Part shown: one piece after another, positions 11,742-60,499 of the stretch
How positions within the stretch are numbered: the stretch's first letter is position 1
Layout: each line of letters opens with the position of its first letter
Assembly (NCBI GenBank): GCA_028386065.3
Contig: JAKUCV010001601.1
Location: 32,206 to 96,205 of the forward strand
Reading direction: 5' to 3'
Length of the DNA stretch: 64,000 bases
From: Turnera subulata
Taxonomy: Eukaryota > Streptophyta > Magnoliopsida > Malpighiales > Passifloraceae
The notes under the pieces: model-generated
Told to the model about the DNA's origin: nothing
Databases searched by the model: none
Seen by the model: the letters and a program-made list of their open reading frames with translations, nothing else
Program-made: the position numbers and the translations under genes

Positions 11742-14700
11742 TGTAACAGCCCGAATAAAATTTATATTTTTACCAGGACTGTAAAAGGTTTTATACAATG
11801 ATTTACAATTTAATATTGGGTAATTAATTCAAGGTAAATCGAGCATCGTATTCCGAAACCGAGCTTTGTTCCACGTTCGGGATTTTTCCTGCGGATTTTA
11901 CGGACTCAAGTTGGCATTTTTTGGGTCCAGGAATTCTCGAAAAAATCGAGTTTAACCAAGAAAGAATGGACCAGAAGTAAAGTACAGAGGGTATAATAGT
12001 TACTTGTTGGTCGAGATGATACCCGCTTGATTATGCAGGTATCACACCTGCACGCGTCAACCAAGCAACTGCGATATTTTCTCCTGTATCACCCAGTACC
12101 TTGTCTGCTTCCTCAAGTTGCACCATGCAGGCGGTGCATTGTGATATTCTTGCCCGTTCACAACCCAGCTCTTTTTCTTCTTCCTGCAAGACGCAAACCC
12201 ATAACCCAGTCTTTTTCTCTGCCTGCAAAAGCAAAACCAGTACAACCAAAGAAGAAAGAAAGGGAAGGAAGAAAAAAAAAAAAGAAAAGGAAACAACACA
12301 CTCACAGGGCAAAACGTTGTCGTTTGGCAACAACCCCTCAGCATCACTTTCTTTTCTTCTTCCCTTCTTCTTCCCTCTCCTACCCATACACAACCTGAGA
12401 TCACCTCCTCCACCGTGCGAACTCGCCCTGCTGTCGACGTCCACCAGCAACCACCGACAGCCGCACGCTTTGCCTCGCTCGTCGTGCTGCTTCCTCCTCT
12501 GTTGCAAATCACTGTCGCCCGGAGCTGCAGCATCAGCAGCCAAGTGCCACCCACCTGATGACGCCTTGCACGCGTCGCCTCGTCTGGAACGCTGCCTTCA
12601 TTCGCGTTCCATGCGCCGCGTCTTCCCCGTCTTGCGCTGCCGAGGAGCTCGCCCTACGCCTAGGTGAGCGACACGTTTCACAAAGGTATGACGGGCGGGT
12701 CGACCCGCTGGTAATGGGTTGACCCGGATGCTCTGTGGTTGGGTTTTGATCACGGGCTCGGTTTGGGTGCCTGGGCCTTATGCACCTGGACTGGTTTTTA
12801 AAGGAACTCGAGCTTGGATTTGGGCTATGCTTTTTAGCCCAGTCCGAATCAAATAAATAATAATAATAATAATATATATTACTGGAAAAAAAGTATATAG
12901 TTTATACAATTTATATTTTCTAGAAAAATAATTATAAGATTATATGATTATATTTTCTAGAAAGAATAAATATATGGTATATGATTTCAAGTGAAATAAT
13001 CATTTTGATATATTATTACTTTTGAGGAATTAAGGTAACTATGATATGATTTATATTCTTTAAAATAAATATATGACAAACAACCTTGATATAAAATTGT
13101 GGATATATTTTCTAGAAATATATATCTATGATCAATTTCTAGAAAAATTATATTGTGGTAAATAATTTCTGTGAAAATAAATAGAGTAATTACCTTGTTA
13201 TATTATCTTCAAGAAACTAAGGTGATTGTAATATGGTATATATCCTAGAAAAATGGTACTATAGTAAATACTGTTAAGGATATATACTATGAGATATTAT
13301 ACTAGAATATATATATATGTGTGACTAGTTTTCTAGAAAAGAAATTATTATATGATAATTATTCTTTTTGGAAAAGAATATATGATATGGTAAACAATAA
13401 TTTCATGAAAAATACTTTGAAAAGGGTATTACCAAAGTATTATACCGGAATAATATCTAGGTATAAGCATAGTATATTATTTTGGCACATGAATTAAAAT
13501 GGTGAATGATGATGATAATGGTAACATAACCCGAGGCATTAACCGAGTCGGATTAGTATTTATTTTACGGTTTATAGTATTAGACTATCATCTACATGTT
13601 ATTATTGTGCATCTTATGTATGCATATTATTTTTTTAATATAGGAGTTGATAACAAGCAGTTCCTCGAGGATCTGGATTCGGAACCTGTTGAGGAATTCA
13701 ATAATTGATAATAGGCTAAGGTGAGGATATAAATTTATAAACTTCGGTATACTGCCTGTGATACTCAAGTTGTTGTGTGAATTGTTTAATATTGTGTTGT
13801 TTGGTTGATACTTGCATTGATTACGATACTAGATAATGTTGAGATTCCTGTTGTGATACTTACCTTGATTTAGAGATACTGAATCCTGTTGTGAATTCTT
13901 TGATACTTGAATTGCTTGATTGAACTGCTGAGTGGTTAAGACTCCTGTGAATATCATTGCTGGGTGAATTATGTGTTTAGGCTCGGTAAGTTTCTTATGA
14001 GCCTTGATTTGTTGATGATATTAATATATTAGCAGAAGTTGGGCCTGTCAACTGTAGTCTAAGTTCTAACTTGAAAGAACGAATATATTGATGAGTTGGT
14101 TTCCCAGATGAGCTGTGAGGCCAAAAGCCTGCTCGGGAACTGTTATTAATAAGGTATACTGGAATAGTGATGTTCTGTACTTAAGTGTCACGTGGGAAGT
14201 AGAGGTACGACCGGATGGTTAGAGGCTATTTTGTGGTGGCCATGATCGGGTTACTTGTGATAAGGATGTCTATCCTTGATTTGATATTTTGGGATGTCTA
14301 TCCTGTGGTTCTGTTTCGGATGTTTATCCCGTGATTCTGTTATGATCTGGCACCCAGAATGTGTGGATAACCTGGTACGCCCAAAGCTAATCACGTGATG
14401 TTGACCGGGCATTGATAGTCGGAGAAAAAAATAAAAAAAATAAAAAAATACGAATTGTCACGATTGGATGACGGTACGGCCAGCGACAGTAGTCTGGGTC
14501 CGTAACGACCCTGTGATTTGTTTGAGGCCGTAATGGCTCTGGACCCCGTAACGGTCCTGTGATTATTTTACGTGGAGGTACCAGTGCGGGAACCACGGGC
14601 TAGCGAGCTTGGCTACCGCGGCACGGCAAACATCTGACTTGTGACAGGGCCCTAATAATTTATTAATAAACTTCTCAGTCTATCTTAGGATGCCTAGTGT

Positions 14701-16978
14701 TGAGAGGTCGGTTGATATGTTCTGATCAGGAATGTAATTGTGGAGTCATAACATTTGTTATCGATTTCAGTTGCGATGATATGATTTTTAGTACTGCTAC
14801 TCCTGCTTGGTGGTCATTGTAATTGGTTGTTGATCACTCTATTGCCACTACTGTATGTGTGATGTTGTGTTCATATAGTTATCCTGATGTTATCCTATTT
14901 TGATGCTTGATGTTATTACGGTTGTTTTTATACTTCGGTTTATTTGTTTATCGGTGAGACAGTGGTTGGTCTCACCCCTCACACAGTTTTGCAGATTAGA
15001 TCAGGATGCATTCTGGCGGCTGTGGCGTACCCTCGGACAGGACTCGGATCCATTAGGTTGCATCAGGCTTTTCAATTGTTGTCTCTTAAGCTTATATTTG
15101 CTTCCGCTATGCTTATATTGTTGTTGTTGGCCCAGAAAAGGCTAAGAAGGGGGGGTTGAATTAGCTTTTCCTCTTTTTTGAGTTTTCAGAGATTTGGCTC
15201 AACGCAGAAGCCAAATGTTAAACTTAAGTGGAAATGCAGGAATGAAGATAGAAAAGCAATGGACACAAGCAATTTATAGTGATTTCCCACGCAGGATTAT
15301 ATCCACTACCTAAAGGTCCCCCATTTAGGATTTCTAAACTATCCATTATACTAGGCTTTTACAGGTTCAATCTTAACCTTTATAAGCTTTTACAGAAGCA
15401 GCTCTAACCTAAGCTTTTCAAAGGCTCAGCTCTAACCTAAGCCTTTCAAAGGCTCAGCTCTAATCTACGCACATGCTTTTCAAAGGCTTAGCTCTAACCT
15501 ATCCTCAAAACTATTCCTAGCTTTGAGTATCAAGTGAGATTGTAACTTAATCTCACTTATAATGCCCTCAACAAGATAACTTCAAGAGTGACTCACTCAA
15601 GAAGTGTTTACAACGAGTTTAGAACAGTAGATTCACTCAAGGTAGGCTCAATCTGAATTTTTGAATCTCTTAGAGGATTTGGCTCTAGCAGAAGCTAAAT
15701 ATCACAGAATATTTCCATAGGTTGAAGTGCTTCTTTTAATGAGGTTTCAGACCTCTTATATAGATTCTCAGGATGGGGAAGCTCTCTTACAACATTCACA
15801 TAACGACCATATGATGTCCAGGTGGCATAGGAGTTGACTTCTTGCTTCTCTAATAAAACAGTCCACGTAGGCAAGCCAAATCTGCAGAATACTTGAGTTG
15901 CAATTGTTTTTCTTCAAAAAGCTTCCCAAAAATGGAAAGTGTGGACCACCATATCTTCCAGGGTAGAGAGACGATGTGAGGACCATTTTTCTGAACTTTA
16001 TCTAACCCTTGGAGTGAAAGTTTAACCGTTAGTTGACTTGGTTTAAAACTATCCACGCAGATGAGCCAAATCTTGATATTACTTGGGCAGAAATTGTCTT
16101 TCTTCAAAAATGTTTCGAAAAATAGAAAGTAAGGACCACCAGCTCTTTGATGCATGAAAGAGGATGTGAGGGCCACTTTTCTAATCTTTTTCTGACCCTT
16201 GGTGAGCAAGCAAAACCGTTAGTTTTTTTTTTTTGAACAGTAGCAAAACCGTTAGTTGAGTTGCTTAATTGTCAACTACTTTTCGGGACCACATTCTTTA
16301 TTGGTTGAAAGTGACAGGTTGCTTGTGTGGACCACCAAAGCTTTCAAGATGCTTAGAAGGTGTGAGGACCACTTTCCAGATCTTTTTCTAACACTTGTGC
16401 TGCAAATTTGGACGTTGGTTGACATTTTAATTGCCAACTACCGATCTGGGACCACACGAAATATAGATTGACAGTGACAGCTTGTTCTGCAGCCTGTGGA
16501 GCTAAATCTTCTCTGTTTTGGTTTTTTCGTGGAACCAAATGTTTCTGCCAATACTCAATCAACATAAAACACTTAACCAATATGTTTGTTAATCATCAAA
16601 ACAATATAATGATCATCAGAAACAAATATTTATACACTAAACATTTGGTTTCTTCCTGGAACCAAATGATTCTACCCGATACTCAAACAACACAAAACAC
16701 TTAACCAATATGTTTGTTAATCATAAAAATAATATAATAATCATCAGAATCATTAGTAACATATATTTGTATACTAAACATGATTAGTCTTAATTAACTG
16801 CTAATTAAGCCACTAATCACATGTTTAGGCTAACAGTTGTGTCCCTAAGGTCGGGTGATGTGTTTGTGACATTGGGCCGATGGGCTAGGTTTTCTATTGT
16901 ATTACTGTTTGTGCCATATGTCGGCACTGTTATTCACTAAATACTGTTTTTTGGGTAAATAGTGGTCGGGGCGTTTCA
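11742..16978 (+). repeat. Left LTR of element A (interrupted by a nested LTR)
   Basis: Starts TGTAACAGCCC and ends GGGGCGTTTCA. The first 40 bases form an imperfect hairpin. A GC-rich leader (about 12100-12660) ends at a consensus splice donor (CCTAG|GTGAG, 12664). About 1 kb of AT-rich DNA follows, then an acceptor (TTTTTTAATATAG, ending 13643), a 77-bp exon-like block (13644-13720) and a second donor (AAG|GTGAGG). Palindromic GGATGT.TATCC units lie at 14260-14340. The stem GGTGAGAC..GTCTCACC is at 14953-14976. A 1711-bp foreign LTR sits at 15125-16835. Confidence 0.85.
15125..16835 (+). mobile_element. Solo LTR of a different retrotransposon nested in the left LTR of A
   Basis: Starts TGTTGGCCCAG and ends GGCTAACA (TG..CA), flanked by perfect 5-bp target duplications GTTGT (15120-15124 and 16836-16840). 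The uninterrupted sequence is seen in the right LTR of A (near 25605). The start region with GAAGGGGGGGTTGAATTAGC resembles Copia-type LTRs, but the family assignment is an inference. It is rich in internal direct repeats: CTTTTCAAAGGCT-TAGCTCTAACC units near 15410-15500, a GGACCACC-containing unit repeated at about 15950, 16130 and 16330, and a CACTTAACCAATATGTTTG unit repeated near 16570 and 16690. No protein-coding gene seen. Confidence 0.85.
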
Positions 16979-17150
16979 TTTTGGTAGCGGAGCGGGCGGT
17001 AGGTCCTTGGGTACTTTCTGTGCTTATTTGTTGTGCATAGCTCGCTTTATATCTCTATTATTTTGCACCTTTACTCATATAATTAGTGCATAATGGATCC
17101 AGTCAAGGGACACCAACCTGCTGCAGAACATTCACATAGAGGTAATTGAT
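16979..17150 (+). other. Primer-binding-site region and gag-like start remnant of element A
   Basis: Directly after the LTR, TGGTAGCGGAGC resembles the initiator-tRNA-Met primer site used by many plant LTR elements (TGGTATCAGAGC) with two mismatches. An ATG at 17093 opens Met-Asp-Pro-Val-Lys-Gly and runs about 16 codons to a possible splice donor (GAG|GTAATTGATG). The same layout exists in element C (58700-58875), so it is a conserved vestige rather than chance. Confidence 0.6.
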
Positions 17151-17195
17151 GCCATACACATGCTTAAATATACTCATTATTATTATTTATTATTA

Positions 17196-17879
17196 TTATC
17201 TGGCAGGTACAACGTTGACTCTGAAACTGTTAGAGTCGTTAGTAATGTTGACCCTGATACTCTCATTCCATGAGAACCACATACCGCTCGTGTTGTTTTG
17301 ACCATAAAGTTCGAACCAGTTTGCCGGCGGGAAACGAAGTAGGATGACACCATGATCGTCTTCAGGCTGCCACGAGGTCTCTGTGAGCAATACCATGTTG
17401 GGCTTGTACTGACTCTTCTGATCCCTCAAGGTACGCACAAATTCATGGGAACGCCTAGCGATTCCTCTACAGTTCCAGAGTAGCAGGCGAACCTTTGGCC
17501 AAGTTGGTGGTAACCTAGTTACTCTGGGAACGCTCCGGGCAATCATCGAAACCTGGTAATAACTACCTTGGTTCATGTAGAGACAAGTAGGCTCTAGTCG
17601 GAATTCCTGAAGTCTTTCAGAAATGAAAAACATGATGGAATTGGCCGAGCCGTAAAAGGAAGTTCTTAGGTTGCTTTAGTCCTTTAGGAAGAACGTCTCT
17701 TCCATAGGAGTGACAAAGAACCTGGACGAATAGAGTTCGTCAACGAAAACCAGACGAGGAATTCTGTCGAGCTCGTTTGGTAATTCCTCTGGCCGCTCGT
17801 TTATCAAGCTGTAAGCTAACCGATTCCTTCTTCCTAAGGAGGCACCCTCAACGAAAAAGACAGAAGATGGAGAAGGCAT
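17196..17879 (-). pseudogene. Antisense ORF 1 of element A: protein with LINE-endonuclease-like C-terminal half
   Basis: Minus-strand frame starting MPSPSSVFFVEGASLGRR and ending VNVVPAR, 227 codons plus stop. The first ~130 residues match nothing I recognise. From about residue 135, W-N-C-R-G-I followed some 30 residues later by L-L-T-E-T and later G-M-W-F-S-W-N resembles the N-terminal part of the endonuclease/exonuclease/phosphatase domain of plant LINEs. The catalytic Asp/His residues of the C-terminal half of that fold are absent, so activity is doubtful. One in-frame TAA (17678-17676) splits the frame after 67 codons; element C has a stop at the same place. A TATA-like CTATAAAAGTATAAAA lies about 80 bases upstream of the ATG. 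Function unknown; binding rather than cutting is one possibility. Confidence 0.55.
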
Positions 17880-17951
17880 TCTGTCTCGACGTGTTTTACA
17901 AATTTTTCTCTCAAAATATTTTTTGATTATTTACTTCTCACCACTCTGTCT

Positions 17952-17967
17952 TTTATACTTTTATAGA
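17952..17967 (-). promoter_or_regulatory. Putative TATA box for antisense ORF 1 of element A
   Basis: On the minus strand CTATAAAAGTATAAAAG lies about 75-90 bases upstream of the ATG at 17879. The corresponding place in element C (59759-59774) reads CATAAGAGTATAAAAG. With the sense GRF ORF starting at 18234, the ~350-bp gap would act as a bidirectional promoter. Confidence 0.45.
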
Positions 17968-18233
17968 AAATATGATTATCTGTTTTTCAAAGTATAGACC
18001 CCACATGTCTCCAAGAAAGCCTAAAAGATTTTTGGGTGACAGAAAAAGTAGATTCTTTTCACAAAACTCCAAACCATTTACAATCTTCAAGGTTTTACTT
18101 TTTGAAAATTTTGCCATTAGTTGAATTATTGTTTTACCACTTTGTATATTTTCTGGCTACAAATACGAGTGTTTCCCAGTTCATTTCCATCTCACAATTC
18201 TCTTACACATTGGCTATCTTGGCTTTTCTTCTT

Positions 18234-18575
18234 ATGGCTTCTTCTACATCTTTTACCCCTTCTATCACATCCATAAGAGGCCAGCGAGGTAAAATTTATG
18301 GGACGATACCTCGAGCACGGTGCATGTGCAACGAGATTGCTCCTGTTTGGACATCCTAGAGGGATATGAATCCCAAGAGATGTTTTCGCTCATGCGGAAA
18401 CTATGGACAAGGTGGTTGCCATTTCTTTCGGTGGATCGAAGAAAGAATCACTGGACATGCTCGAGATGTCATCGTCGCGTTGCGGGACAACAAATGCCTT
18501 CTACACGAAGAGAATCAATATCTCCGACAACGGCTGCAAGCTGTGATGCCTGAAGTCGAGGGACTACGTGACTAG
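18234..18575 (+). pseudogene. Sense ORF of element A: GRF zinc-finger protein with coiled-coil tail
   Basis: Starts MASSTSFTPS. A GRF-type finger follows: C-M-C near residue 30, then P-V-W-T-S, R-D-M-N-P-K-R-C-F, a C-G, and G-G-C-H-F-F-R-W, giving four Cys and the aromatic C-terminal signature. A helical, probably coiled-coil tail (LLHEENQYLRQRLQAV) completes about 113 codons. One in-frame TAG (18357-18359) lies inside the finger; element C has Trp there (TGG), so the stop is a secondary G-to-A change. GRF fingers bind single-stranded DNA, which could suit a cDNA or replication intermediate, but that role is inference. It is divergent to antisense ORF 1 and convergent to antisense ORF 2. Confidence 0.65.
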
Positions 18576-18754
18576 TCTCTAGTGTCGGATAAGAAAAACA
18601 AGTTTTATTTTAACTTCTTTATGATTGGTTCTATTTTCTTCATGTTGGTTTTTATTTTGCCTTGAAATGTTTCTTTCCATCTTTTGTGAGCTTGGATTAT
18701 TGATAAAGGGTTTGGTTTTATTAAAAAGAACAACTTGTTTATTTTGATAACACA

Positions 18755-19180
18755 TTACAATAGAGAGGAAGCACTCAATGGAGTTACTTGCTTCTCTAGA
18801 TCCTTTACAAGTTTATGCATATTATTGATCTGATAGGAGAGTCCCATATAAGCCAGTTCGATCTGCATCACCGCAGTGTTGACCTTCTTTAGGGAAGCGT
18901 TCAGATGCTCTAGTGTCTTCAGTGGTGTACTGCTGTGAGCAATTGCTTTGTCTTTCTGATCACCGGTATCCTTGCGACCGGAAGGTTCCTCTTTGGTAAC
19001 TGGCTTCTTTCGATGTTTTCGAGATATGACCATATCTTCCATACGACCAGGGATGCTCATCCGCTTGCGACGGTTCTTCAGCCCTTCCTCATCATCGGAG
19101 TCACCGAAGAGAGCAGCACCACCAGTATAACTTAACTCCTCTAAATCAGAGGTAGTTTTAGTTCTTAATGGTGAGTCCAT
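18755..19180 (-). CDS. Antisense ORF 2 of element A: acidic/basic linker protein with C-terminal coiled coil
   Basis: An intact 141-codon minus-strand ORF from MDSPLRTKTTSD to SASSLL. The N-terminus is Ser/Thr/Asp-rich and acidic. The middle (about 35-80) is strongly basic with Arg/Lys clusters resembling nuclear localisation signals. The C-terminal ~60 residues (AVMQIELAY, NNMHKLVKDLEKQV) look like a coiled coil. Element C encodes the same protein (60500-60898) with conserved N- and C-termini and a divergent middle. No known family is recognised; a multimerising or nucleocapsid-like role is only a guess. A TATA-like CCTATAAAAACGA lies about 35-45 bases upstream of the ATG. Confidence 0.6.
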   Translation of the reverse strand: MDSPLRTKTTSDLEELSYTGGAALFGDSDDEEGLKNRRKRMSIPGRMEDMVISRKHRKKPVTKEEPSGRKDTGDQKDKAIAHSSTPLKTLEHLNASLKKVNTAVMQIELAYMGLSYQINNMHKLVKDLEKQVTPLSASSLL

Positions 19181-19212
19181 GATTCGAGTTACGCTTTGCC
19201 AGGCATAAGGTC

Positions 19213-19223
19213 GTTTTTATAGG
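19213..19223 (-). promoter_or_regulatory. Putative TATA box for antisense ORF 2 of element A
   Basis: Minus strand CCTATAAAAAC, about 35 bases upstream of the ATG at 19180. Element C has CCTCTATAAGAACC at the same place (60931-60944). Confidence 0.45.
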
Positions 19224-19333
19224 ACAACGAGAAGACGCAAAGGGGTATAACCGAGATTTCATGTTGGGTACAGTGGTCTTGATAAGGAGTATGTAAGAAG
19301 ATTGTTGATGTAGGACTCGTGATGTGACGATTG

Positions 19334-19370
19334 AATTTCGAGGACGAATGTCTTTTTAAGGTAGGTAGAC
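19334..19370 (+). other. Polypurine-tract region before the right LTR of element A
   Basis: AATTTCGAGGACGAATGTC then TTTTTAAGGTAGGTAGAC stands immediately before TGTAACAACCC. Elements B (minus strand, about 48876-48842) and C (61036-61083) carry nearly the same AATTTCG[A/G]GGACGAAATTC block before the 3' LTR. This is the signature expected for plus-strand priming in this chromovirus group. Confidence 0.6.
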
Positions 19371-21822
19371 TGTAACAACCCGGATAAAATTTGTATTTTT
19401 ATCGGGACTGTAAAAGGTTTTATACAGTGATTTATAATTTAATCTTGGGTAATTAATTCAAGGTAAATCGAGCATTGGATTCTGAAAACCGAGCCTTGTT
19501 CCACGTTCGGGATTTTTCCTGCGGATTTTACGGACTCAAGTTGGTATTTTTCGGGTCTAGAAATTCTCAGAAAAATCGATTTTAACCTCGAAAGAACGGA
19601 CTAGAAATAAAGTACAGAGGGTATAATACTTATTTGTTGGTCCAGACGATACCTGCTTGATTATGCAGGCATCACACCTGCACGCGTCGACCATGCAGTT
19701 GCGATATTTTCTTCTATGTCACCCATTACCATGTCTGCTTCCTCAAGTTGCATCATGCAGGCGGTGCGTTTGTGATATTCTTGCTTGTTCACAACCTAGC
19801 TCTTTTTCTTCTTCCTGCAAGACACAAACCCATAACCCAGTCTTTTTCTCTACCTGCAAAACCAAAACCAGTACAACCAAAGAAGAAATAAAGGGAAGGA
19901 AGAAAAAAAAAAAAAAAAGGAAAGGAAACAACACACTCACAGGGCAAAACGTTGCCGTTTGGCAACAACCCCTCACCATCACTTTCTTTCCTTCTTCCCT
20001 TCTTCTTCCCCCTCTACCCACACACAACCCGAGACAACCTCCTCCACCGTGCAAACTCGCCCTGCTGTCGACGTCCACCAGCAACCATCGACAGCCGCAC
20101 GCTCTACCTTGCTTGTCGCGCTGCTTCCTCCTCTGTTGCAAATCGCCGCCGCCCGGAGCTGCAGCATCGGCAGCCAAGTGCCACCCACCTGCACGACGCC
20201 TTGCAGGCGTGCGCCTCGTCTTCCCCGTCTTGCGCCGCCGAGGAGCTCTCCCTACGCCTAGGTGAGCGACCCGTTTCACACAGGAGTGACGAGCGGGTCG
20301 ACCCGTTGGTAATGGGTTGACCTGGATGCTCTATGGTTGGGTTTTGACCACGGGCTGGGTTTGGGTGCCTGGGCCTTGGGTGCCTGGTTTTTAAAAGAAC
20401 CCGAGCTTGGATTTGGGCTGTGCTTTTTAGCCCAGTCCGAATCAAATAAAAAAAATAATATATATATATATGATTACTGGAAAAAAATGTAACAGTCCGG
20501 GTAAAAATTTTGGATTTTTACCGGGACTGTAAAAGTCTTTTTATCGTGATTTACTGTTGAATTAATCTTGGGTAATTAATTCAAGGTAAATCGGGCGCCG
20601 TTTTTCGAAACCGAGAGTTTTCCCGCGCTCGTGATTTTTCCGTGGATTTTTCGGGCCTAAGTTGGTATTTTTCGGGTCCCGGGATTTTCGGAAAAATCAC
20701 ACCGGAAAATAACTAAGGGGGTATCAGTTATTTTCTGGTCCGGACCGACTTGCTCTATAATGCAGACAGGCTGCATTATTGATGAATCACAGGTTAAACA
20801 GTGTATTACGTCTATAAAAAGAAGAAAGCAGGAGAGGGGAAGAAGAGAAGAGAAAAAGAGAGAAGGGGAAGAAAAAGAAAAAGAGAGGAAAAGAGAAAAA
20901 AAGAGAGAAAAAGAAAAAAAAAAGAGAAAGAAAAGAAAAAAAAAAAGAGAAAAGAGAAAATCAGAAAAAAGGGAGGAAGAAAATAAGCAAAAAAAAGGAA
21001 GAAAAAAAAAGAAAAAGAAGCAAAAGCAAAAATCGGAAAATCAGAAGAAAATAGAAAAAAAGAAGAGAAAATAGAAAATCGGAAAAAAAATGGGTGAACA
21101 GTGTCGTCAACCCAGGGCGCCCCGTTACTGTACACGACGAAGCGACCGGCGCCGACCCGAGGTTCACCGCCACCACCAGTTGGACGCCCGAGACGTCGCC
21201 GACCTTCTGCAGCCCTTTCCTCCCGTCCCCGCTGTGAGACGCGCCGCCGAGCGCCGTTGACCCACGGATCTCCTTCTCCGAGCCGCTGACGACGACACCG
21301 GCGATGCCGCGCCTCTTTTCCGCCGCCCTTGCGCCGCTCCAAGCCGTCCGATGCCGCTGTTGTGCTCGCTTTCCCTTCCCCGCGTTTGTCGCGCCGCCGC
21401 CGCTGCAACCCAAGGTGAGCAGACCCGCGTTCGACCCGGATGCCTGTGGTCGGGTTATGACCTGTGGATGTGTGTTGGGCCGGGTCTGGGCGTGGGCCTG
21501 TGCTTCGGGCCTGCTGCCTTGGTCTGGGCCGGCACTATTCATGGCCCAGTCCGTTTAATTTAAAAAAACAAAATATATACATATATGTATTTATTATATT
21601 CTGGTATTTAATTTTGAGAAAAAAAATATATTTATTTTGAGAAAATTATGGCCAATTTAATTCTTGTATTTTGAGGAAAATATAAATATATATACTTTGA
21701 TAAATAATTAAGCTATGTTTTGGAGAAAAACTAATATTATTTGGAAAAATATATAAATATCATGAAAATAAATTCTGGAAATTTAATATATGTATTATTT
21801 TCTCTAGAAAATTATGGTTATG

Positions 21823-21857
<35 letters not shown>

Positions 21858-24800
21858 TACTTTGGAAATTAAAGGTAATTATATTTTATGTTGGAAAATA
21901 TTATTATGTATATTTAGAAAAAGATAAATACTATATATACTTTCTGGAAATTGTACATAGGTTATTATTTTTTCTGGAAAATTATGGAGATTATAATTTT
22001 GGAAATTATAATTATTTTATGAAAATATTTTGAAAAAAAATTAATTAAAGTATGGTACCGAAATTATATTCGGATATACGTACGGTATAATATTTTTGGT
22101 AAATGGAAATAATAAAAGATATGTACATTGGTAACCGGGATGGGTATATTTCGCAGTATTGGCATCATAGTATACCGATTATGTGCATTTATGTGTATAT
22201 ATTGTCTTGTAGTATAGGTTTGGATATCGGGCAGTTTCCCGAGGAGCCGTCGTCGGACCGGTCATTGTCTCCGGAGTTGAGTAATCGGCCAAGGTGAGGA
22301 TGGATTTCCTTCAATATGTGCCTGTATTACTCGGTTATTGTGTTTGATGTTTAAATGCACTGTTGGTTGTTGCATTTGCTGTGGCTTGATTCGGGATGTT
22401 TATCCCATTGTCTTGATTGTTGTCGGGATGTTTATCCCATGTTGGTTTTTGGATGTTTACCCTTGCATCTTTTTGGTTTAAAATATAATGGAATTAATAA
22501 TAAATTGTGATAAGGATGTCGATCTTTGATTTTGGATAGGGATGTCTATCCCGGTATTTTGGTTAGGGATGTTGATCCCTGTGATTTGATTTTGATGACG
22601 ATAATATAATTGTCACGTGGTAAGTAGTGGTACGATTCGATGGTTTAAGACTGTTTCGTGGTGGCCTTGACCTGGGTTACTTGTGATAAGCATGTCTATG
22701 CTTGGGATGTCTATCCCGTGATTATTTTTGGGATGTCTATCCCTGGGTTCGTATTTTTGGGATGTCGATCCCTGGGTTCTCTGGATTTGGTCTGGCACCC
22801 GGAATGTGTTGATAACCAGGTCTAACCTCTAGCTTATCCGTGACGGGACCCGGAAAAGATAAAATTGGAAAATTGGATTTAATTTGAGTCTTTTGGTCTC
22901 GGACGGGTTTTGGGTCGAGTCTTTTGGTATGGCTGTTGTGCCTGTTTTTTACTTGAGTAATTATAGTTGCATTTTGATTGTCTATCCTTCGTCGGTGAGC
23001 ACTTCGGACTCACCCCTCACCTGCGGGCTTTCATCCCGTAGGATGGATTATTTGTGGTACAGGTTTGATGCATACCAGACAGGCTGCGGCGTTATCCCTT
23101 GGACAGGGTTCGGATCTATAGTTTGCATCAGTGTCGCATACAGTGTTTTGTGAGTTATTAAAGTCTTCCGCTGTGCATTATTTTGTTATTGTTGGGCCAT
23201 TGGGCCGACTATGTTGTTATTGACGTTATTATTTTTGGGCTATTGAGCCCGAGTTACTGTTGTATGCACTGTATGCTGGGCTTTATTTGGTCAGGTTGTT
23301 ACAGTTCCGGCACGTGTTTACTGTGTACGGTAAATACGGGTCGGGGCGTTTCAAAAAATATATAGTTTATACAATTTATATTTTCTAGAAAAATAATTAT
23401 AAGATTATATGATTATATTTTCTAGAAAGAAAATAAATATATGGTATAGGATTTCAAGTGAGATAATCACTTTGACATATTATTACTTTTGAGGAATTAA
23501 GGTAACTATGATATGATTTATATCTTTTAAAATAAATATATGACAAACACCCTTGATATAAAATTGTGGATATATTTTCTAGAAATATACATCTATGATC
23601 ATTTTCTAGAAAAATTATATTGTGGTAAATAATTTTTGTGAAAATAAATGAAGTAATTGCCTTTTCATATTATCTTCAAGAAACTAAGGTGATTGTAATA
23701 TGGTATATATCCTAGAAAAATGGTACTATAGTAAATACTGTTAAGGATATATACTATGAAATATTATACTAGAATATATATATGTGTGACTAGTTTTCTA
23801 AAAAAAAATTATTATATGATAATTATTCTTTTTGGAAAAGAACATCTGATATGGTAAACAATAATTTCATGAAAAATACTTTGAAAAGGGTATTACCAAA
23901 GTATTATACCGGAATAATATCCGGATATAAGCATAGTATATTATTTTGGCATATGAATTAAAATGGTGAATGATGATGATAATGGTAACATAACCCAAGG
24001 CATTAACCGAGTCGGATTAGTATTTATTTTACGGTTTACAGTATTAGACTATCATCTACATGTTATTATTGTGCATCTTATGTATGCATATTAATTTTTT
24101 TAATATAGGAGTTGATAACGAACAGTTCCTCGAGGATCTGGATTCGGAACCTGTTGAGGAATTCAATAATTGATAACAGGCTAAGGTGAGGATATAAACT
24201 TATAAACTTCGGTATGTTGCCTGTGATACTCAAGTTGTTGTGTGAATTGTTTAATATTGTGTTGTTTGGTTGATACTTGCATTGATTACGATATTGGATA
24301 ATGTTGAGATTCCTGTTGTGATACTTACCTTGATTTAGAGATACTGAATCCTGTTGTAAATTCTCTGATACTTGAATTGCTTGATTGAACTGCTGAGTGG
24401 TTAAGACTCCTGTGAATATCATTGCTGGGTTGAATTATGTGTTTAGGCTCGGTAAGTTTCTTATGAGCCTTGATTTGTTGATGATAATAATCTGTTAGCA
24501 GAAGTTGGGTCTGTTAACTGTAGTCTAAGTTCTAACTTAAAAGATCAAATATATTGATGAGTTGGTTTCCCAGATGAGCTGTGAGGCCGAAAGCCTGCTC
24601 GAGAACTGTTATTAATAAGGTACACTGGAATAGTGATGTTCTGTACTTAAGTGTCACGTGGGAAGTAGAGATACGACCGGATGGTTAGAGGCTATTTTGT
24701 GGTGGCCATGATCGGGTTACTTGTGATAAGGATGTCTATCCTTGATTTGATATTTTGGGATGTCTATCCCGTGGTTCTGTTTGGGATGTTTATCCCATGG

Positions 24801-25730
24801 TTCTGTTATGATCTGGCACCCAGAATGTATTGATAACCTGGTATGCCCAAAGCTGATCACGTGAAGTTGACCGGGCATTGATAGTCGGAGAGAAAAATAA
24901 AAAAATAAAAAAATACTAATTGTTACTATTGGATGATGGTACGGCCAGTGGCGATAGTCTGGGTCCGTAACGACCCTGTGATTTGTTTGAGCCCGTAAAG
25001 GCTCTGGACCCGTAACGGTCCTGTGATTTTGATTCGGCCCGTAATGGTCCTGTGATTATTTTACGAGGAGGTACCAGTGCGGGATCCACGGGCTAGCTAG
25101 CTTGGCTACCGCGGCACGACCAACATCTAACTTGTGACAGTGCCCTAATAAATTATTAATAAACTTCTCAATCTATCTTAGGATGCCTAGTGTTGAGAGG
25201 TCGGTTGATATGTTCCGATCAGGAATGTAATTGTGGAGTCACATCATTTGTTATCGATATCAGTTGCGATGATATGATTTTTAGTACTGCTACTCCTGCT
25301 TGATGGTCATTGTAATTGGTTGTTGCTCACTCTATTGCCACTACTGTATGTGATGTTGTGTTCATATAGTTATCCTATTTTGATACTTAATGTTATTACG
25401 GTTGCTTGTATACTTCGGTTTATTTGTTTATCGGTGAGACAATGGTTGGTCTCACCCCTTACACAGTTTTGCAGGTTAGATCAGGATGCATTCTGGCGGC
25501 TGTGGCGTACCCTCGGGCAGGACTCGGATCCATTAGGTTGCATCAGGCTTTGCAATTGTTGTCCCTTAAGCTTATATTTACTTCCGCTGTGCTTATATTG
25601 TTGTGTCCCCAAGGTCGGGTGACGTGTTTGTGACATTGGGCCGATGGGCCAGATTTTCTATTGTATTACTGTTTGTGCCATATGTCGGCACTGTTATTCA
25701 CTAAATACTGTTTGTTGGGTAAATAGTGGT
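19371..25730 (+). repeat. Right LTR of element A, truncated at its end and interrupted by a solo LTR
   Basis: Starts TGTAACAACCCGG and is collinear with 11742-16978 apart from the insertions. The donor at the end of the GC-rich leader is at 20262. The exon-like block is 24109-24185 after an acceptor ending at 24108, with a donor at 24186. The GGTGAGAC..GTCTCACC stem is at 25433-25456. It stops at GTAAATAGTGGT, about 12 bp short of the expected GGGGCGTTTCA end. A 2866-bp solo LTR occupies 20488-23353. Confidence 0.85.
20488..23353 (+). mobile_element. Solo LTR nested in the right LTR of A
   Basis: TGTAACAGTCCGGG to GGGGCGTTTCA, 2866 bp, flanked by AAAAA on each side (20483-20487 and 23354-23358). 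The left LTR of A reads through the site uninterrupted (near 12885). It contains a TATA-like TCTATAAAAAG (about 20811), an exceptionally long purine tract (about 20813-21098), a leader ending at a donor (21415), an AT-rich segment with a (TA)n run near 21825-21855, an acceptor (ends 22217), a 76-bp exon-like block (22218-22293), palindromic GGGATGT.TATCCC units (about 22395-22770), and two consecutive hairpins (22994-23014, 23020-23042). The LTR is closer to that of C than to that of A. Confidence 0.88.
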
Positions 25731-43268: not shown

Positions 43269-43273
43269 TGGTT

Positions 43274-46087: not shown

Positions 46088-46092
46088 GAAAA

Positions 46093-48841
46093 TAAAGCGC
46101 CCCGACCCGTATTTACTATGCACAATAAACACGAGCCGAAACTATTCTTTTTAATAGTACAGGCAGTACATCACAGTAAAATACTACACAGTAAATTCAA
46201 ATACAACAGCACACTGTATATTACAACTGTCACCCATACCCGGGGACCATTATTCAAACCACACACAATACTCAACAGCAACAGCATAATCCAGACTAAA
46301 CAGCATCATAAGCGATATAGAAAGCAGCAACACAACAACATATATAGCACAGCAGCGGAAGACTTAAATGCACATGCAGTGGAGGTATGGATCCGGAGTC
46401 AGGTGGGGAAAAAAGCAGCAGCCATCGAACGTCGTACCTGATTTATGAAACAACTAAACCTACGGGATGAAACCCCGCAGGCGAGGGGTGAGTCCGAAGT
46501 GCTCACCGACGAAGGATAAACAGAGATATGTAGTCAACCATAATACTTCCGAAGTAAACACAGACAAGCACAACACAAAGATTCTATTAAAACACAACTG
46601 AGCCAAGACCAAAAGATTATTTATTATTATTACCAATTTTATCTTCCGGGCCCCGTCACTAGACAAGCTAGGGTCGTACCTGGTTATTAACTAATTCTGG
46701 ATGCTAGGCCAAAACACAATCCGGGATCAACTTCCCAACAACAACCAATCCGGGATCAACATCCCAATATCCAAATCATCCGGGATCAACATCCCCAATA
46801 TCCAAACCAAACCGGCCATGACACCACAGAACTAGCCTCTAACCATCTAGTCGTACCACTACTTTCCACGTGACAAATAAATCATCATCTCAAATTCAAT
46901 TCCAATTCCATTTTTCTATCCTCATTTATCCAACTTCCTATGATCTCAAGTTATTCCACAGACCCTTCCAATCAACAATCACATATTACCAATTATTCAC
47001 AATTAGCAGTTCAATGATTACTCACAATATCCACAGTCCAACAACACAATCCAGCAACATCAACAACAATATCCATAGCAAACGAACAATAATCAATAAA
47101 CATCTCAGCAGTTCAATCAAACAACAAAAATACACACACAGTATTACGGGCACATATCCAAGGTTATCCATCCTCACCTTAGCCGATTATCAATTTTGGA
47201 AATGCCCGACAGACTCCAAGTCCGGTTCCTCAAGTATCTGCTCGTTATCAACTCCTATATCAAACAAATAATATGCATACATAAGTGATATGCAAATGTC
47301 ATGCTAGTACTGTATACCGAAAAAATAAATACTAACTCGTCTCGATTACTGCCTCGGGTTAATTTTCCATTATCATCATAATTCACCATTTATTTCCAGT
47401 GTCCAAAAATAATACCATACTTATACCTATACCTGGATACTATATCGGTACCATACTTCTTTGATAATACCCTTTTCATATTTATTTTCCTCCAAAATAA
47501 TTATTATTTACCATATAATATACTTTTCCCAAAAATATTATTTTCACCAATTATTTTTATTTCCATAAGTATGTACTTTCCAAATATTTTCCATAAAATT
47601 ATACTTCCCAAATATATTATATACTTTCCATAATATTATTTCCAGAAAAATTAAACCTTGTTATATTATTATTTTTTTTCCATTAAATTCCTAGAATTAT
47701 ATCTATTTTTATTTTCCAGAATGTATTTATTTTATTTTTTTTCTATTAAATCCGGACTGGGCCAACAGTCCAACCCCATGAACTACCATCAACCCAACTG
47801 GTCAGCCTATGGTCCAAGCATAGAGCCCAGAACAAGGCATGAGCCACAGGCCCACACCAAGACCAGGCCCGCACCAACCATCCAGCTGACCCGTTGAGGA
47901 AACGGGTCACTCACCCTCGATCCTGGTCAGGGGACGCGGCGCGGGTCACGGCAGGAGCAAGGCGTCGAGCAGGCGGCAAGAACGGCGAGGAGGAGATCGC
48001 GACGAGAAGGACGAGGCGCTGGCGTGACGACGGAGGCGGCGGCTGTTGGCGCGGCCTGCTGCGGCTAACGACAAGCGGTAGGGAGGAGGTGCAGCTCGTC
48101 GGGTTCTCTGTCGTTGGCGGCACGTCGGGAGGCGTAATCGGGCAGTGACGACTGGGTCTGGTCAGCGACGGCACGGGGAGTACGATGGGGAGGGTGGTGT
48201 TGCGTGTGGCGGCTCGGTTCACCTACGTGTGAACAGTAACGAGGGGAGGGAGAAAGAGGAAGGTGGCGGTGGTGTTGTGATGGTGATGATGTGGCAGGTT
48301 CTGATTGGTTGTCTGGTGTGTGTTGTGTGTTTTCTCTTTTTTTTTTCTGGTTTTAGGCAGTTTTGTAGGAGAGTAAGACGATGGTGTTTGTAAGAAGAAG
48401 ATGGAGATAAGGATGATGATGGTGTACTGAGAAGGTAAGAAGAACACAGGTTTAAGGCATGCAAGGCACGAGTAAGGCACTGGTAAGGCACGGGTACACT
48501 ATCAGCTCACAGGTTCACAGTGGGAGGCGGCTGCATAAATCAATTATGCAGTCGTGTCCCGTCCGGACCAGAAAATATCCAATGTACCCCCGTACCTTTA
48601 TTTCTGGTCCATAAACTCGAGGGGTAAACCTGGCTTTTCTGAAGATTCCTGGACCCGAAAAATTCCAACTTTGGTCCAAAAAATCCACAAAAAAATCCCG
48701 AACGTGGGACAGGGTTCGGTTTCGGAATCCAAAGCTCAAATTACCATAAATTAATTACCCAAGATTAATTTTAATGGTAAATAACGGTAAAATAAATTTT
48801 ACGGTACCGGTAAAAATGCAAAAATTACCCGGGTTGTTACA
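46093..48841 (-). repeat. 3' LTR of element B
   Basis: Read on the minus strand: TGTAACAACCCGGG at 48841 to GGGGCGCTTTA at 46093. The last dinucleotide is TA instead of CA, a point change in the integrase end. It carries the leader donor (47914), an acceptor ending at 47255, an exon-like 77-bp block (47254-47178) followed by AAG|GTGAGG, GGGATGTTGATCCC-type units (46715-46800) and a GGTGAG..CTCACC stem (about 46486-46506). Confidence 0.88.
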
Positions 48842-48876
48842 GCCTGCCCACCTTAAAAGAATTTCGTCCCCGAAAT

Positions 48877-51800
48877 TCACTCTGACGCTGTGAACAGGTG
48901 CGGATACTGAGTACGCTTGTGCTCCTCAACTTCCCACGTAGACTCGTTCGCAGAGTGCTTGCTCCACTTAACCTTTACCATCGGTATGACTCAGTTTCTC
49001 AACTGTCTGACCTCTCGAGCAAGAATCTGTTCTAGCAATTCTGTATACGTAAGATCCTCTGCGACTTCAACATCTGCTGTAGTAACCACGTGACTTGGGT
49101 CTGATCTGTACCTCCTCAACATGGAAACATGGAACACATCATGAATCCGTGACAACTCCTTTGGTAAAGATAATCTGTACGCCAAGGGTCCAACCCTTTC
49201 CACAATCTCATACGGCCCGATATACCTGGGACTCAGTTTCCCTCTTTTCCCGAATCTGATAACACCCTTCCATGGTGCAACTCGGAGGAAAACTCTTTCT
49301 CCCACTTGGTACTCCATCTCACGACGATGTTTGTCAGCATAACTCTTCTGTCGATCCTGTGCTGCTCTCATGCTCTGCTTAACTACCTGAATCTTATCAA
49401 CTGTCTGCTTAACCAAATCTGGTCCCACAATCAAACGGAGACCTTCCTCACCCCAATATACTGGACTTCGGCATTTCCTTCCGTAAAGAGCTTCAAACGG
49501 TGGCATGCGGATGCTGGAATGAAAATTGTTGTTGTCGAACTCCGCTATGGACAAATACTGATCCCAACTCCCACTGAAATTAAGAGCATAAGCTCTTAGA
49601 ATGTCCTCCAGTGCCTGAATAGTCCTCTCTGACTGTCTGTCTGTCTGAGGATGAAAAGCGGTACTGAAACTCAGCTTCGTTCCCAAAGCTGCTTGCAGAC
49701 TCTTCCAAAACCGTGATGTGAATCTCAGATCTCTATCTGAGACTATGGACTTAGGAATCCCATGTAGTCTCACAATCTCTGCAATATATTGTTTCGCCAA
49801 CTTATCCAGAGTATCTGTCTGTCGGATGGGAAGAAAATGAGCTGATTTTGTAAGTTGATCAACGATAACCCAGATGGCATCATGCTGTCTCCGGGTCAAC
49901 GGTAATCCAACCACAAAATCCATAGTGATCATCTCCCACTTCCACTCTAGCACTGTCAAAGAACTCAATTTTCCCGCTGGAGCCTGATGCTCGGCTTTCA
50001 CTTGCTGACACGAGATACACTTAGCCACATACTGGGCTACATCTTTCTTCATATGCGGCCACCAAAAATGACTCCTCAAATTCTGATACATTTTAGTGCT
50101 TTCAGGGTGCATAGCATACGGCGTCATATACCCTTCTTCCAAAATCTGACTATATAGGTCACCAACACTGGGTACACATAGGCGTTTCCCCAGCATCAAT
50201 GCACTATCCTCAGCTATATGAAACTTGTCTTCTTTTCCACTACGGACTGCTTCCTTCAGCTTGATCAAGTCGGGATCTCCTTCTTGTAATTCCACAATCC
50301 AGCCTCTCAGGTTAGACTTCACTTCAATATGGGTCAACAAAGCTCCTGTCTCGTCCACTGACAAATCAACTCCCATCTTCCTTAACTCGATAAGTGAGGA
50401 CATCGAGTAGGTCATGGAAGCATCTTCTGGTTGTCTCCGGCTCAAAGCATCTGCTACAACATTCGCTTTTCCAAGGTGATACTCAATAGTACAATCATAA
50501 TCATTCAGCAACTCAACCCTACGTCGTTGTCGTAGGTTAAGTTCCTTCTGAGTCATGATGTACTTGAGACTCTTATGATCTGTGAAAATCCAGCATCTCT
50601 CACCGAACAGATAATGTCGCCAAATCTTCAAAGCAAGGATTACCGCGGCCATCTCTAGATCATGTGTCGGGTAGTTCTTCTCATGTGGTCTCAACTGTCT
50701 CAAAGTATAAGCAATCACTCGGCCCTCTTGCATCAGAACTGCTCCCACACCAAGACCTGAAGCATCGCAAAACAGCATATACTCCACTCCTGGCTTAGGT
50801 ACTGTCAAAACTGGTGCTTATGTCAACTTCTTCTTCAGTTCATCAAAACTCTTCTGGCAGACATCACTCCACACAAAGGCTTGATCTTTCCTCAATAGCT
50901 TGGTCATGGGACTGGCTATCAAGGAAAAACCGTCGATGAATCTCCAATAATATCCTGCAAGGCCAAGAAAACTTCTGACTTCAGGGTACCGTCTTGGGCG
51001 GCTCCCACTCTAGGACAGCTTCCACCTTGGCAGGGTCAACCTTAATCCCATCCTCAGATACAACATGTCCAAGGAATGCAACTTCCTCAAGCCAGAACTC
51101 GCACTTGCTGAACTTGGCATACAACTGTTTCTCTCGCAGCCTCTGCAGTACTACCCTCAGGTGCTCTTCATGTTCTTCCATGCTCTTAGAGTATATCAGA
51201 ATGTCATCGATGAAGACTACCACAAACTTGTCCAATAACTCGTTCAGGACCAAGTGCATCAAGCACATGAAAACTGCAGGTGCATTGGTCAAGCCGAAAG
51301 GAACCACTGTGAGCTCAAAATGTCTATACCGAGTACGGAAGGCTGTCTTCGATATGTCCTTCTCTGCAATCTTGATCTGATGGTAGCCAGAAGGAAGATC
51401 TTTCTTGGAAAATACAGTAGCTCCCTGCAACTGATAAAAAAGGTCATCAATCCTGGGAATCGGGTACTTGTTCTTCACTGTCACTTTGTTCAGCGGTAGT
51501 CCACACACATACGCAAACTGCCATCTTTCTTCTTCACAAAGAGAACTGGTGATCCCCAGGGTGATGTACTAGGTCTGATAAATCCCTTCTCAAGCAGCTC
51601 ATCTAATCGTTTCTTTAACTCTTGGAGTTCTGTCGGTGCCATCCGATATGGTGCCATCGAGATAGGTGTCACTCCCGGCATCAAATCAATGGTGTACTCG
51701 ACTTCCCTGTCAGGTGGCAATCCTGGTAGATCCTCCGGAAACACATCTAGAAACTCCCTCACAACTGTGATGTCCCCCAAAACCAGAGTCTGAACTTCTT

Positions 51801-53477
51801 CGCCTTTGACATGAGTCAACAAAGCATCTGGACTCAATGGCTTCATCCCAATATCTTGATTAGCAGAGATACTACATGTAGTAGCAGCTCTCCCAATACC
51901 TATCAACAAAACCTGTCGTCCACCATCGGAAGTCAACAGCACTTCCTTGGTTCGACAATTTACCATAGCACTGTACCTCGATAACCAATCCATCCCCAGG
52001 ATGATATCGAAACCTCCCATGTTCATCACAATCAACCGTGCAAGAAAAACCTTGCTATCGTACGAAAGCGAAACGTCTCTGCACATATGGGTTAACCTGA
52101 CCACTATACCCGCAGGTAACCTAACCCTCATCGGACAAGTTAAACTCTCTCTCGTATAGTTATGTTGTATTGCAAAACCTTGCACAATAAATGAATGCAT
52201 AGCACCAGGATCAATCAAAGTATAAGCAGTACTACCAAAGACTATAAATGTACCTGCTATGACATCGGCATTCTCTGGATCCTCATCAGCGGTGATCACA
52301 AATGCTCTCGGCACTGCTGCACTCTGATTCATGGCTAACTGGGTCCTAGCAGGAACAACTCCACGTCCTCGGCCTCGGCCAACTCTAGAACCACTAGGAA
52401 CACTGGCAACTGAAGCTTGCACTGTCTGAACAGGTGCCGTACCTCCAGATCGTCCCAACTTGGGACAAGAATGTCGATAGTGCCCAACTTTGTTACACTC
52501 ATAGCACCTCACCTGAGACAGAGGAGGTCTTGGGCGAGCATTCCAAGAAGAAGTCCCTCTAGACTGAGTCCAAGAACTGTCTCGGCTGTTGTAGGTGTTG
52601 TTGTTCTATCCACGTCTCTGGCTCACTGGCATAAATCGGCTCTGCCCATATCCCGACCGGTTCGCTGGTTTCAGGAACCTCTTGTTCTGTCCTTCAGAAC
52701 TCTGCACAGCATGCTTCTTACGGATCTCCTGTTGCTCTCTTTCAATGTCCCGCCAGATAATCTCGGCTTTCAAGGCATCTGTTAGTATGTCCTGGTAAGT
52801 CTCGTAAACCTTGCACCCCATGACTGTCTGGATGCCAGATCGAAGACCATCCCAGAAACATTTACATCTGGCCTCCGGAGTAGCCACAAACTCACTGGCG
52901 TAGATGGACAGGTGGTTGAACTTGATCTCATACTCATTGACCGTCTATTCTGCCCCCTGTTGCAGTCCCAGAAACTCTCGTCTCAGCTGGTCCTGGTACG
53001 CCTCAGAAACAAACTTCCTTCGGAACATCTCCATGAACTAGTTCCATGGCATAGTGATAGGTGTCGGTAGGTCCCTGGTTGTGGACTCCCACCAATCAAC
53101 AGCATCTCCTCTAAACATAGCAGCGGCATATCTGGCCCACATGTCATTCCTGCACCTCAGCTTCAGCATAACCTTGTTCATCTGTCTGAGCCACTAATTA
53201 GCATCCTGTGGTGTGGTAACACCGGTGAAAATCTCTGCCCCAAGCTTCTCCTTCTTCATATACACTGGGTCTTCAACAGGTCCCTGATTTTCCTGTTCCC
53301 GAGCTTCCATAGCATCGATACGAGCATCTCTGGCATCTTGCCTTCGTAGAATCTGAGTTACCACGTTTAACATCTACGTAGGATCTCCCAAAGGAACATT
53401 CGGAGGATGTTCCGGACCTCCCGCAATTTGCTGCGGTTGACCCACCGATACCTGATCGTCATCTAGGTGACCTCCAG
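48877..53477 (-). pseudogene. gag-pol of element B: gag, protease, reverse transcriptase, RNase H, integrase, chromodomain-like tail
   Basis: Minus strand. Gag remnant from 53477 to about 52520, interrupted by several in-frame TAG codons. CCHC knuckle C-Y-E-C-x4-H-x4-C at about 52506-52465. The protease site near 52212 reads L-I-D-P-G-A, with Pro in place of the usual Ser/Thr of D-S/T-G. RT runs over 51600-50981 with F-I-D-D near 51208. RNase H is about 50790-50450 (T-D-H-K-S-L). The integrase has a zinc-binding H-H-C-C part and a core with M-D-F, V-S-D-R-D and S-E-R. A GPY/F-type module ([13 protein letters not shown]) follows, then a shortened chromodomain-like end (W-S-K-H-S-x-x-E-S-T-W-E-V-E) to TGA 48879-48877. 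Breaks: frameshifts near 51490-51508 and near 50980, a TAA near 50818, and a TGA at 48991 separating the chromodomain-like tail. It could not give a full polyprotein. Confidence 0.88.
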
Positions 53478-55512: not shown

Positions 55513-55517
55513 GAAAA

Positions 55518-58699: not shown

Positions 58700-58875
58700 T
58701 TTTTGGTAGCGGAGCGGGCGTTAGGTCTTGTTGGGTAGTCCTTGTATGTTCGTTGTTCTTGTTTGCATAGTTCGCTCCATTTGTTTATTATTTTATATCA
58801 TTTAGTTAGTGCATGATGGATCCAGTCAAGGGACGCCAGCTGTCACAGAACATACACATAAGAGGTAATTGATGC
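58700..58875 (+). other. Primer-binding-site region and gag-like start remnant of element C
   Basis: TGGTAGCGGAGCGGGCG follows the LTR, as in A. Met-Met-Asp-Pro-Val-Lys-Gly-Arg-Gln opens at 58813 and runs to a possible donor GAG|GTAATTGATG. The same vestige is in A (17093). Confidence 0.6.
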
Positions 58876-58963
58876 CATAAATAAGCGGAAACATAAATAT
58901 TATTAATGTCACTAATAATAATATTACAAACATTAAAATTACATTATATTATAAAAAAAACTT

Positions 58964-60249: not shown

Positions 60250-60499
60250 CTGTGCATGTCACGTTTCTCGGGATCGAGGATGTTTACGACCGATCTAGAG
60301 CGCTGATCATGAAAATATGTTTTTGTTTTAACTTCTTCGTGTTTTGGTTTTGTTAAACGAATTTTGTTTTTAATCCCTCTAAGTTTGATTTTATATTCTT
60401 ATTGTCGAATTTTGTTTTGCTTTGAAATGTTTTGATTTTCTGTTTAACATGAGATTTTGATTTAAAAAGAAAGCTTGTTTTATTTATTTCATAACAGTT

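Follow-up and report, generated by a model that had tools for sequence, protein, structure and literature searches.

Can a long terminal repeat (LTR) retrotransposon without gag-pol carry genes of its own that selection preserves? Element A raises this question. It lies in a stretch of 64,000 nucleotides of the Turnera subulata genome (assembly GCA_028386065.3, contig JAKUCV010001601.1, positions 32,206 to 96,205 of the forward strand), which is the window of this study and to whose first letter all coordinates refer. An inspection of the interior shows a compact cassette of three open reading frames (ORFs) that stands between a gag start and a pol tail in place of gag-pol. ORF1 and a gene with a GRF finger are divergent, and the GRF gene and a coiled-coil ORF are convergent (Table 1). 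The original prediction, made from the letters alone, had placed three coding regions between LTRs at 16979-19370, and the junctions at 16978/16979 and 19371 agree with it. Element A is, in our view, probably one of a family of non-autonomous LTR elements that behave as satellites of a chromovirus and code for accessory proteins.

The cassette occurs in many places of its own genome. In the 518.7-Mb assembly (7,125 contigs), a search with the interior of A returned the best 40 places among 5,980 first-look candidates, and a search with the interior of element C, the second copy in the window, returned 40 further places among 5,761 candidates; each list includes its window copy and is a lower bound. 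The two lists, compared by eye, are disjoint, and the cassette occupies at least 80 places; the original prediction had made its case depend on there being more than two. Our analysis covers 37 of the 80, namely 35 fetched copies (30 from the A list and five from the C list) together with A and C. The matched interiors are 1.6-2.6 kb long. All three regions are matched in 30 of 32 copies, L013 having no ORF1 match and L025 no coiled-coil match, and five additional C-type copies match both ORF1 and the coiled-coil ORF. Two of the copies, L020 and L021, hardly differ and could represent a single locus that the assembly contains twice.

Element C carries the same interior, as had been claimed for it: 1370 bp align with A at 72.8% identity and 1195 bp at 65.5%, and the three regions are recognisable. 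Both window copies are damaged. Element A has one in-frame stop in ORF1 and two in the GRF gene (18357-18359 and 18573-18575), while element C has four stops in ORF1 and a frameshifted, shortened GRF gene without its N-terminus. The coiled-coil ORF is the only one of the three that is open in both.

The strongest evidence for selection comes from ORF1. The ratio of nonsynonymous to synonymous substitution (dN/dS) was estimated in 18 disjoint recent pairs and 12 deep pairs of copies, with the other frames of the same strand as controls. For ORF1 the ratio is 0.24 [0.21-0.28] in recent pairs and 0.15 [0.13-0.17] in deep pairs, against 0.75-1.13 and 0.72-1.55 in the control frames. Six lineage groups, picked by eye from the tree, give 0.19-0.32 with upper bounds of at most 0.48, so that ORF1 is constrained in each of them. 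The all-pair medians in the frame of A are 0.17 for ORF1 (630 pairs), 0.36 for the coiled-coil ORF (630 pairs) and 0.52 for the GRF gene (666 pairs). Other frames give 1.16-1.60 over the ORF1 region, 0.72-0.94 over the coiled-coil region and 0.68-0.78 over the GRF region, save for one opposite-strand frame at 0.27 in ORF1 and one at 0.45 in the coiled-coil ORF; these two are low because they share third positions with the coding frame. Changes between A and C fall 29/29/86 on the first, second and third codon positions of ORF1. The proportion of nonsynonymous differences (pN) of ORF1 in the 18 recent pairs is 0.043. Since this is no more than the neutral change between paired LTRs (0.034-0.072), the ORF1 protein has probably changed little before insertion.

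The full ORF1 frame is longer than was first thought. The original prediction had described an antisense ORF of 145 amino acids; it is a real coding frame, yet only the second part of a 227-residue frame that is split in A by the TAA at 17676-17678. This frame is uninterrupted at 227 amino acids in six of the 35 fetched copies, and two more extend to 262 and 263. Uninterrupted frames among the fetched copies mean that intact copies exist, for ORF1 as for the coiled-coil ORF. Two explanations of the stop shared by A and C were rejected. Recoding, or a division into two genes, does not agree with a TAA found in only three of 37 copies and with eight fetched copies uninterrupted there, and an intron spanning the stop, sought by hand, would lead into wrong frames or be too short.

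The coiled-coil ORF is under weaker constraint, with dN/dS of 0.45 [0.39-0.53] in recent and 0.34 [0.29-0.39] in deep pairs, set against the same control ranges of 0.75-1.13 and 0.72-1.55. Its point estimate (0.38-0.61) lies under the control frames in all six groups and is clearly apart from them in three: the C-type group, the group of A and the L024 group. The original prediction had treated purifying selection as decisive; it is found for ORF1 throughout the groups and clearly for the coiled-coil ORF in half of them. In 33 of 37 copies the coiled-coil frame stops seven codons earlier than in A. A structure prediction made with two sequences gives one helix of 53 residues, mostly at high confidence, whereas the N-terminal half is charged, contains basic runs and is poorly predicted.

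The GRF gene has a different history. All five GRF proteins tried match PF06839 below its cut-off, the best being L014 with 25.1 bits against 25.9 (E-values: L014 1.8e-5, L009 4.5e-5, L018 1.6e-4, L013 0.021, L025 0.032). Behind the finger, L013 has a coiled stretch and then a hydrophobic helix, a finger-coil-membrane layout that may resemble that of small plant GRF proteins. Over all pair sets the GRF ratio is 0.55 (recent) and 0.50 (deep), against 0.64-0.76 in the same-strand controls. Constraint is seen in a group of 11 copies (A, L009, L012-L018, L025 and L030), at 0.26 [0.20-0.33] over four disjoint pairs against 1.01 and 0.72 in the control frames; this group was chosen after the translations had been seen, and L019, L020 and L021, from the same part of the tree and with a decayed GRF gene, were left out after the decay had been seen. 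Four of the 11 lack a premature stop in the frame of A; one of the four, L030, is short of a single base in the finger. None of the other 26 copies is free of stops; they carry 3.5 on average, some of them shared, and in 21 the finger has changed in length by other than a multiple of three, in 15 by the loss of exactly one base. Figures for these other lineages come from six pairs, which represent 12 of the 26 copies. They are 1.04 [0.58-1.98] for the finger, where the frame of A is partly wrong because of the frameshift, 0.59 for the whole region, and 0.44 [0.31-0.62] for the coil and helix against 0.50 and 1.45 in control frames. The C-terminal part may thus be constrained outside the 11-copy group, now or before the break. 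The original prediction, which treated the GRF gene as a constant member of the cassette, does not hold here, as outside one group the gene is frameshifted and carries shared stops.

A donor-like AG/GTAATT site follows the gag-start remnant (17093-17145), and a conserved block ending in CAG (18168-18179) precedes the GRF gene. A spliced message from the leader to the GRF gene was considered and dropped, as the frames, joined by hand, do not fit.

The two antisense genes appear to have their own promoters. Upstream of ORF1, 36 of 37 copies have a TATA box, against one of 37 for the opposite strand and 12% of shuffles; the coiled-coil ATG is preceded by one at a distance of about 40 bp in all 35 copies tested (14% in shuffles). 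The latter is near-palindromic, and the other strand matches as well in 33 of the 35. None of the 37 copies has a TATA box upstream of the GRF gene.

The putative primer-binding site occurs in 31 of the 37 copies aligned, with a conservation of 0.96 over 16979-16998, and the pol tail in 35 of 37, with 0.94 over 19333-19356. The related chromovirus in the window, element B, has RVP_2, RVT_1, RT_RNaseH, Integrase_H2C2 and rve domains (rve below the cut-off) and a chromodomain end that matches PF00385 with an E-value of 5.5e-4, also below the cut-off. At its pol tail and at the start of its LTR it agrees with the ends of A and C. A loss at 53477/53478 has deprived element B itself of the end of its 5' LTR, of the primer site and of the gag start. 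Three other 5' ends of its family, taken out of 40 places scored, agree with the cassette elements in the primer site and almost completely in the LTR end; the gag start reads ATGGATCC in two of them and ATGGATAC in the third. As both ends match the autonomous B family, the cassette sits between its gag start and its pol tail. We take the family of element B to be putatively Tekay/Del, on features of its tail and LTR. An apparent solo LTR of a related family lies at 40360-43270.

The cassette elements share these ends of the putative Tekay/Del chromoviruses, namely LTR end, primer site, gag start and pol tail, and differ in giving no match to gag-pol or a chromodomain, of which element B keeps pieces. 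A tblastn search with the gag-pol pieces of element B (E 1e-3) recovered element B itself in the window but gave no match in the 37 interiors or in the 35 loci, of which 20 span about 9 kb and 15 about 2.6 kb. The proteins for replication would be supplied in trans by B-like chromoviruses.

Despite this, the copies have moved. Among 22 elements with flanks, both outer LTR ends were placed in five, and three of the five (L010, L014 and C) have identical 5-bp flanks, as expected of target duplications; the flanks of L027 and L028 are not identical at the computed boundary. The Kimura two-parameter distance (K2P) between paired LTRs is 0.034-0.072 in 16 of 17 elements; the exception is L026 (0.163), whose alignment may be disturbed by a nested insertion. 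LTRs measured whole are 3.1-3.5 kb long (L010, L014, L027 and L028). Target duplications, similar LTR pairs and retained replication ends together argue that the copies were mobilised although no gag-pol is found in them. The non-coding stretch from the coiled-coil ORF to the tail differs by 0.37 in deep pairs, against the small distances between paired LTRs, which means that lineages long separated were still moving recently. The original prediction of a non-autonomous, chromovirus-related family of many copies with selected genes of its own is borne out by the number of places, the shared ends and the constraint on ORF1.

Table 1. Features of elements A, B and C in the window (+, forward strand; -, reverse strand;., no strand).
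Feature	Position	Strand	Remarks
5' LTR of element A	11742..16978	+	87-96% to 3' LTR in three colinear pieces; ends ...GGGGCGTTTCA
Primer-binding-site-like stretch TTTTGGTAGCGGAGC	16979..16993	+	junction with LTR at 16978/16979
Gag-start remnant ATGGATCC...	17093..17141	+	followed by AG/GTAATT; in 34/37 copies
ORF1	17196..17879	-	in-frame TAA at 17676-17678 in element A
Conserved non-coding stretch between divergent ORF1 and GRF gene	17880..18233	.	blocks at 17981-18115
TATA box 5' of ORF1	17960..17965	-	position in A from conservation alignment
GRF gene	18234..18665	+	N-terminal tail, GRF finger, coiled stretch, C-terminal hydrophobic helix; stops in A
Coiled-coil ORF	18755..19180	-	141 amino acids in element A
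TATA box about 41 bp upstream of coiled-coil ATG	19216..19221	-	
Pol-tail remnant and polypurine stretch	19333..19370	+	reads EFRGRNSF-stop in element C
3' LTR of element A	19371..25730	+	pairs with 5' LTR
Element B, related chromovirus	46092..55513	-	gag-pol pieces; no cassette
Element C	55731..62746	+	LTR 55731-58699, interior 58700-61084, LTR 61085-62746; target duplication ATCAC

Both LTRs of element A are interrupted, the 5' LTR by a later insertion at about 15125-16835 and the 3' LTR by a solo LTR of the C type (20488-23353), which has AAAAA on either side; no target duplication of element A itself was found. On the plus strand of the window there are 25 occurrences of the near-palindrome GGGATGTYKATCCC, always in LTRs of related families and mostly in clusters (22393-22772, 24757-24796, 42529-42655, 57691-58102 and 61766-62151). 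It is also found in the LTRs of three copies of the autonomous family, and a looser form is absent from six of ten cassette copies checked (L009, L014, L015, L016, L018 and L028). It is a possible candidate for a protein-binding site. Elsewhere in the window there are a piece of a Mutator-like element (5584-6201; MULE domain below the cut-off, E-value 2.6e-4), a gene for a KH-domain protein, of which two stretches on the minus strand are open (34113-35837), tandem duplications at 2963-3582, 4222-4621 and 34873-35215 with units of 225, 200 and 167 bp, and a run of 232 N between exact 188-bp repeats (44303-44534) that is perhaps an assembly artefact.

The original prediction had suggested cDNA handling or silencing escape as possible functions of the proteins. 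The C-terminal part of ORF1 contains WNCRG and LTET and resembles the N-terminal part of Exo_endo_phos: the match of the window copy covers the first 40% of the profile and stops, together with ORF1 itself, at position 89 of the 225 in the profile. Seven of ten C-terminal sequences match (best E-value 0.0027), as do three of nine from a longer alignment (best E-value 0.00032), all sub-threshold. The label of an endonuclease-like half, as originally given, is therefore not supported as written, for it rests on sub-threshold Pfam matches, and a search of the PDB with ORF1 matched no chain of this fold; we keep it as a weak lead. If the label is right, a role in binding is likelier than one in cutting, because the active site would then lack its second half. 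ORF1 might then be an inactive nucleic-acid binder derived from an endonuclease, and the coiled-coil protein with its basic runs might be an oligomeriser. The cassette proteins could be nuclear regulators by which copies of the family stay transcribed or escape silencing; the retention of trans-acting products by selection within the family would then be explained. These assignments are the least certain part of the proposal. Put as a whole, the family may be a gag-pol-less satellite retrotransposon that lives off a chromovirus and whose accessory genes and internal antisense promoters are selected to act on their own family, for example in anti-silencing or nuclear import; we offer this tentatively, as plausible but not as the expected outcome.

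Several observations weigh against a satellite-like family with accessory proteins. Broken copies are the majority: ORF1 is free of stops in 13 of 37 copies, the coiled-coil ORF (to its usual end) in 28, and the GRF gene in four, one of these with a frameshift in the finger. The GRF gene was lost as an open frame in most sampled copies, with ORF1 retained. In three of the six groups the coiled-coil ratio (0.48-0.61, with wide intervals) overlaps the control frames. The structure prediction for ORF1 gave no usable fold (predicted local distance difference test, 32.8). No homologue of any of the three ORFs outside this genome was found in a protein collection, nor of two of them among viral contigs, both apparently including few plants. 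The autonomous partners analysed amount to one whole element, the damaged B, and three 5' ends of 1.5 kb.

The decay of so many copies, with GRF frames that outside one group are shifted and share stops and a coiled-coil signal unclear in half of the groups, is what a passively carried block of captured host or transposon DNA without function would show. We regard this as very unlikely, because the ratio of ORF1 falls far under the control frames in every group and in recent and deep pairs alike, and because the coding frames hold few stops: per copy 0.95 in the ORF1 frame against 8.4-15.8 in the other five, and 1.14 in the coiled-coil frame, mostly its own end, against 3.2-10.1. Low ratios would likewise arise if the genes were selected in the host or in another transposon and the element had repeatedly recaptured or gene-converted them. 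Repeated capture is quite unlikely, given that gag start and pol tail together flank the cassette in 32 of 37 copies and that the distances among copies in leader, ORF1, middle, GRF gene, coiled-coil ORF and tail all correlate with one another (r 0.38-0.88, none reached in 500 permutations; 32 of 37 copies, L012, L013, L020, L021 and L031 being left out as their leader is wholly or partly absent). Correlated distances and shared junctions favour a single event, and gag-pol would have been replaced by the cassette once.

The family could instead be the remnant of a Retand-like autonomous chromovirus with gag-pol and accessory ORFs that has lost gag-pol by deletion, the cassette proteins having served this parent. 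This seems unlikely to us: in element B the pol tail directly adjoins the LTR and leaves no space for extra ORFs, and the sampled copies contain no gag-pol and yet show constraint on ORF1 among themselves. The interior might also be kept for a function of the RNA, such as packaging, dimerisation or structure, with the ORFs incidental. The stretch between ORF1 and the GRF gene (17895-18236) has a deep divergence of 0.25, against a proportion of synonymous differences (pS) of 0.47 in ORF1, and since it is more conserved than these synonymous sites, some cis function is likely in addition. As the sole explanation an RNA function is highly improbable in view of the frame-specific dN/dS and of the conservation of ORF1 by codon position (0.92/0.95/0.82). 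A satellite-like family with selected genes of its own is thus the reading that we prefer.

How does such a family compare with known elements? Large retrotransposon derivatives (LARD), for example Sukkula and Dasheng, are described as having non-coding interiors. The cassette elements resemble them in long LTRs, primer site, polypurine stretch, lack of gag-pol and many copies, and differ in an interior that codes for selected ORFs, ORF1 in all six groups and the coiled-coil ORF clearly in three. TR-GAG elements retain gag and BARE-2 elements lack it, whereas all of gag-pol is replaced in the cassette elements. All are non-autonomous LTR elements, and a review covers TRIM, LARD, TR-GAG and BARE-2; it defines LARD by size and draws non-coding stretches in a figure legend (PMC6696364). 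Retand, Grande, RIRE2 and PvRetro13 have antisense accessory ORFs between pol and the 3' LTR, that of Grande with its own promoter, and a nuclear role of such ORFs is considered possible (PMC7264820, PMC11963269). The cassette elements share antisense genes and a possible nuclear role with these, and some Retand elements are described as non-autonomous too, but no pol match is found in the cassette elements beside which such genes could sit. The antisense domain of Retand is Transposase_28, and the accessible text of the Retand paper does not mention GRF, a zinc finger or an endonuclease; no cassette protein gave a Pfam match to Transposase_28.

Other likenesses are more distant. VANDAL elements with VANC offer a possible mode of action, sequence-specific anti-silencing encoded by the element (PMC5735166, PMC10398659); they are DNA transposons, and the likeness would lie in the mode of action. 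Gene-capturing LTR elements of the maize Bs1 type also contain foreign coding sequence, which is usually in sense and in few copies (PMC7264820), whereas two of the three cassette genes are antisense and the copies are many. Revolver is small and transposon-like, has a single gene and shows partial homology to LARD LTRs, and it differs in its terminal inverted repeats, its assignment to class II by its author and its one three-exon gene for 139 amino acids (PMC2851119). Among the titles and abstract openings searched, in which subscription papers are mostly outside coverage, neither this trio nor a gag-pol-less family with selected genes is described.

Non-autonomous retrotransposons are usually regarded as gene-free parasites, and in the cassette family selection has preserved at least one protein that the family itself encodes. 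This raises the question of how a trans-acting protein can be maintained by selection in a parasite that relies on a different element, and it warns that LARD-like repeats may hide genes. The family is a natural system in which to seek family-specific factors for anti-silencing or transport, and, if the tentative reading of a satellite whose genes act on its own family is true, it would be a retroelement analogue of a satellite virus with genes of its own.

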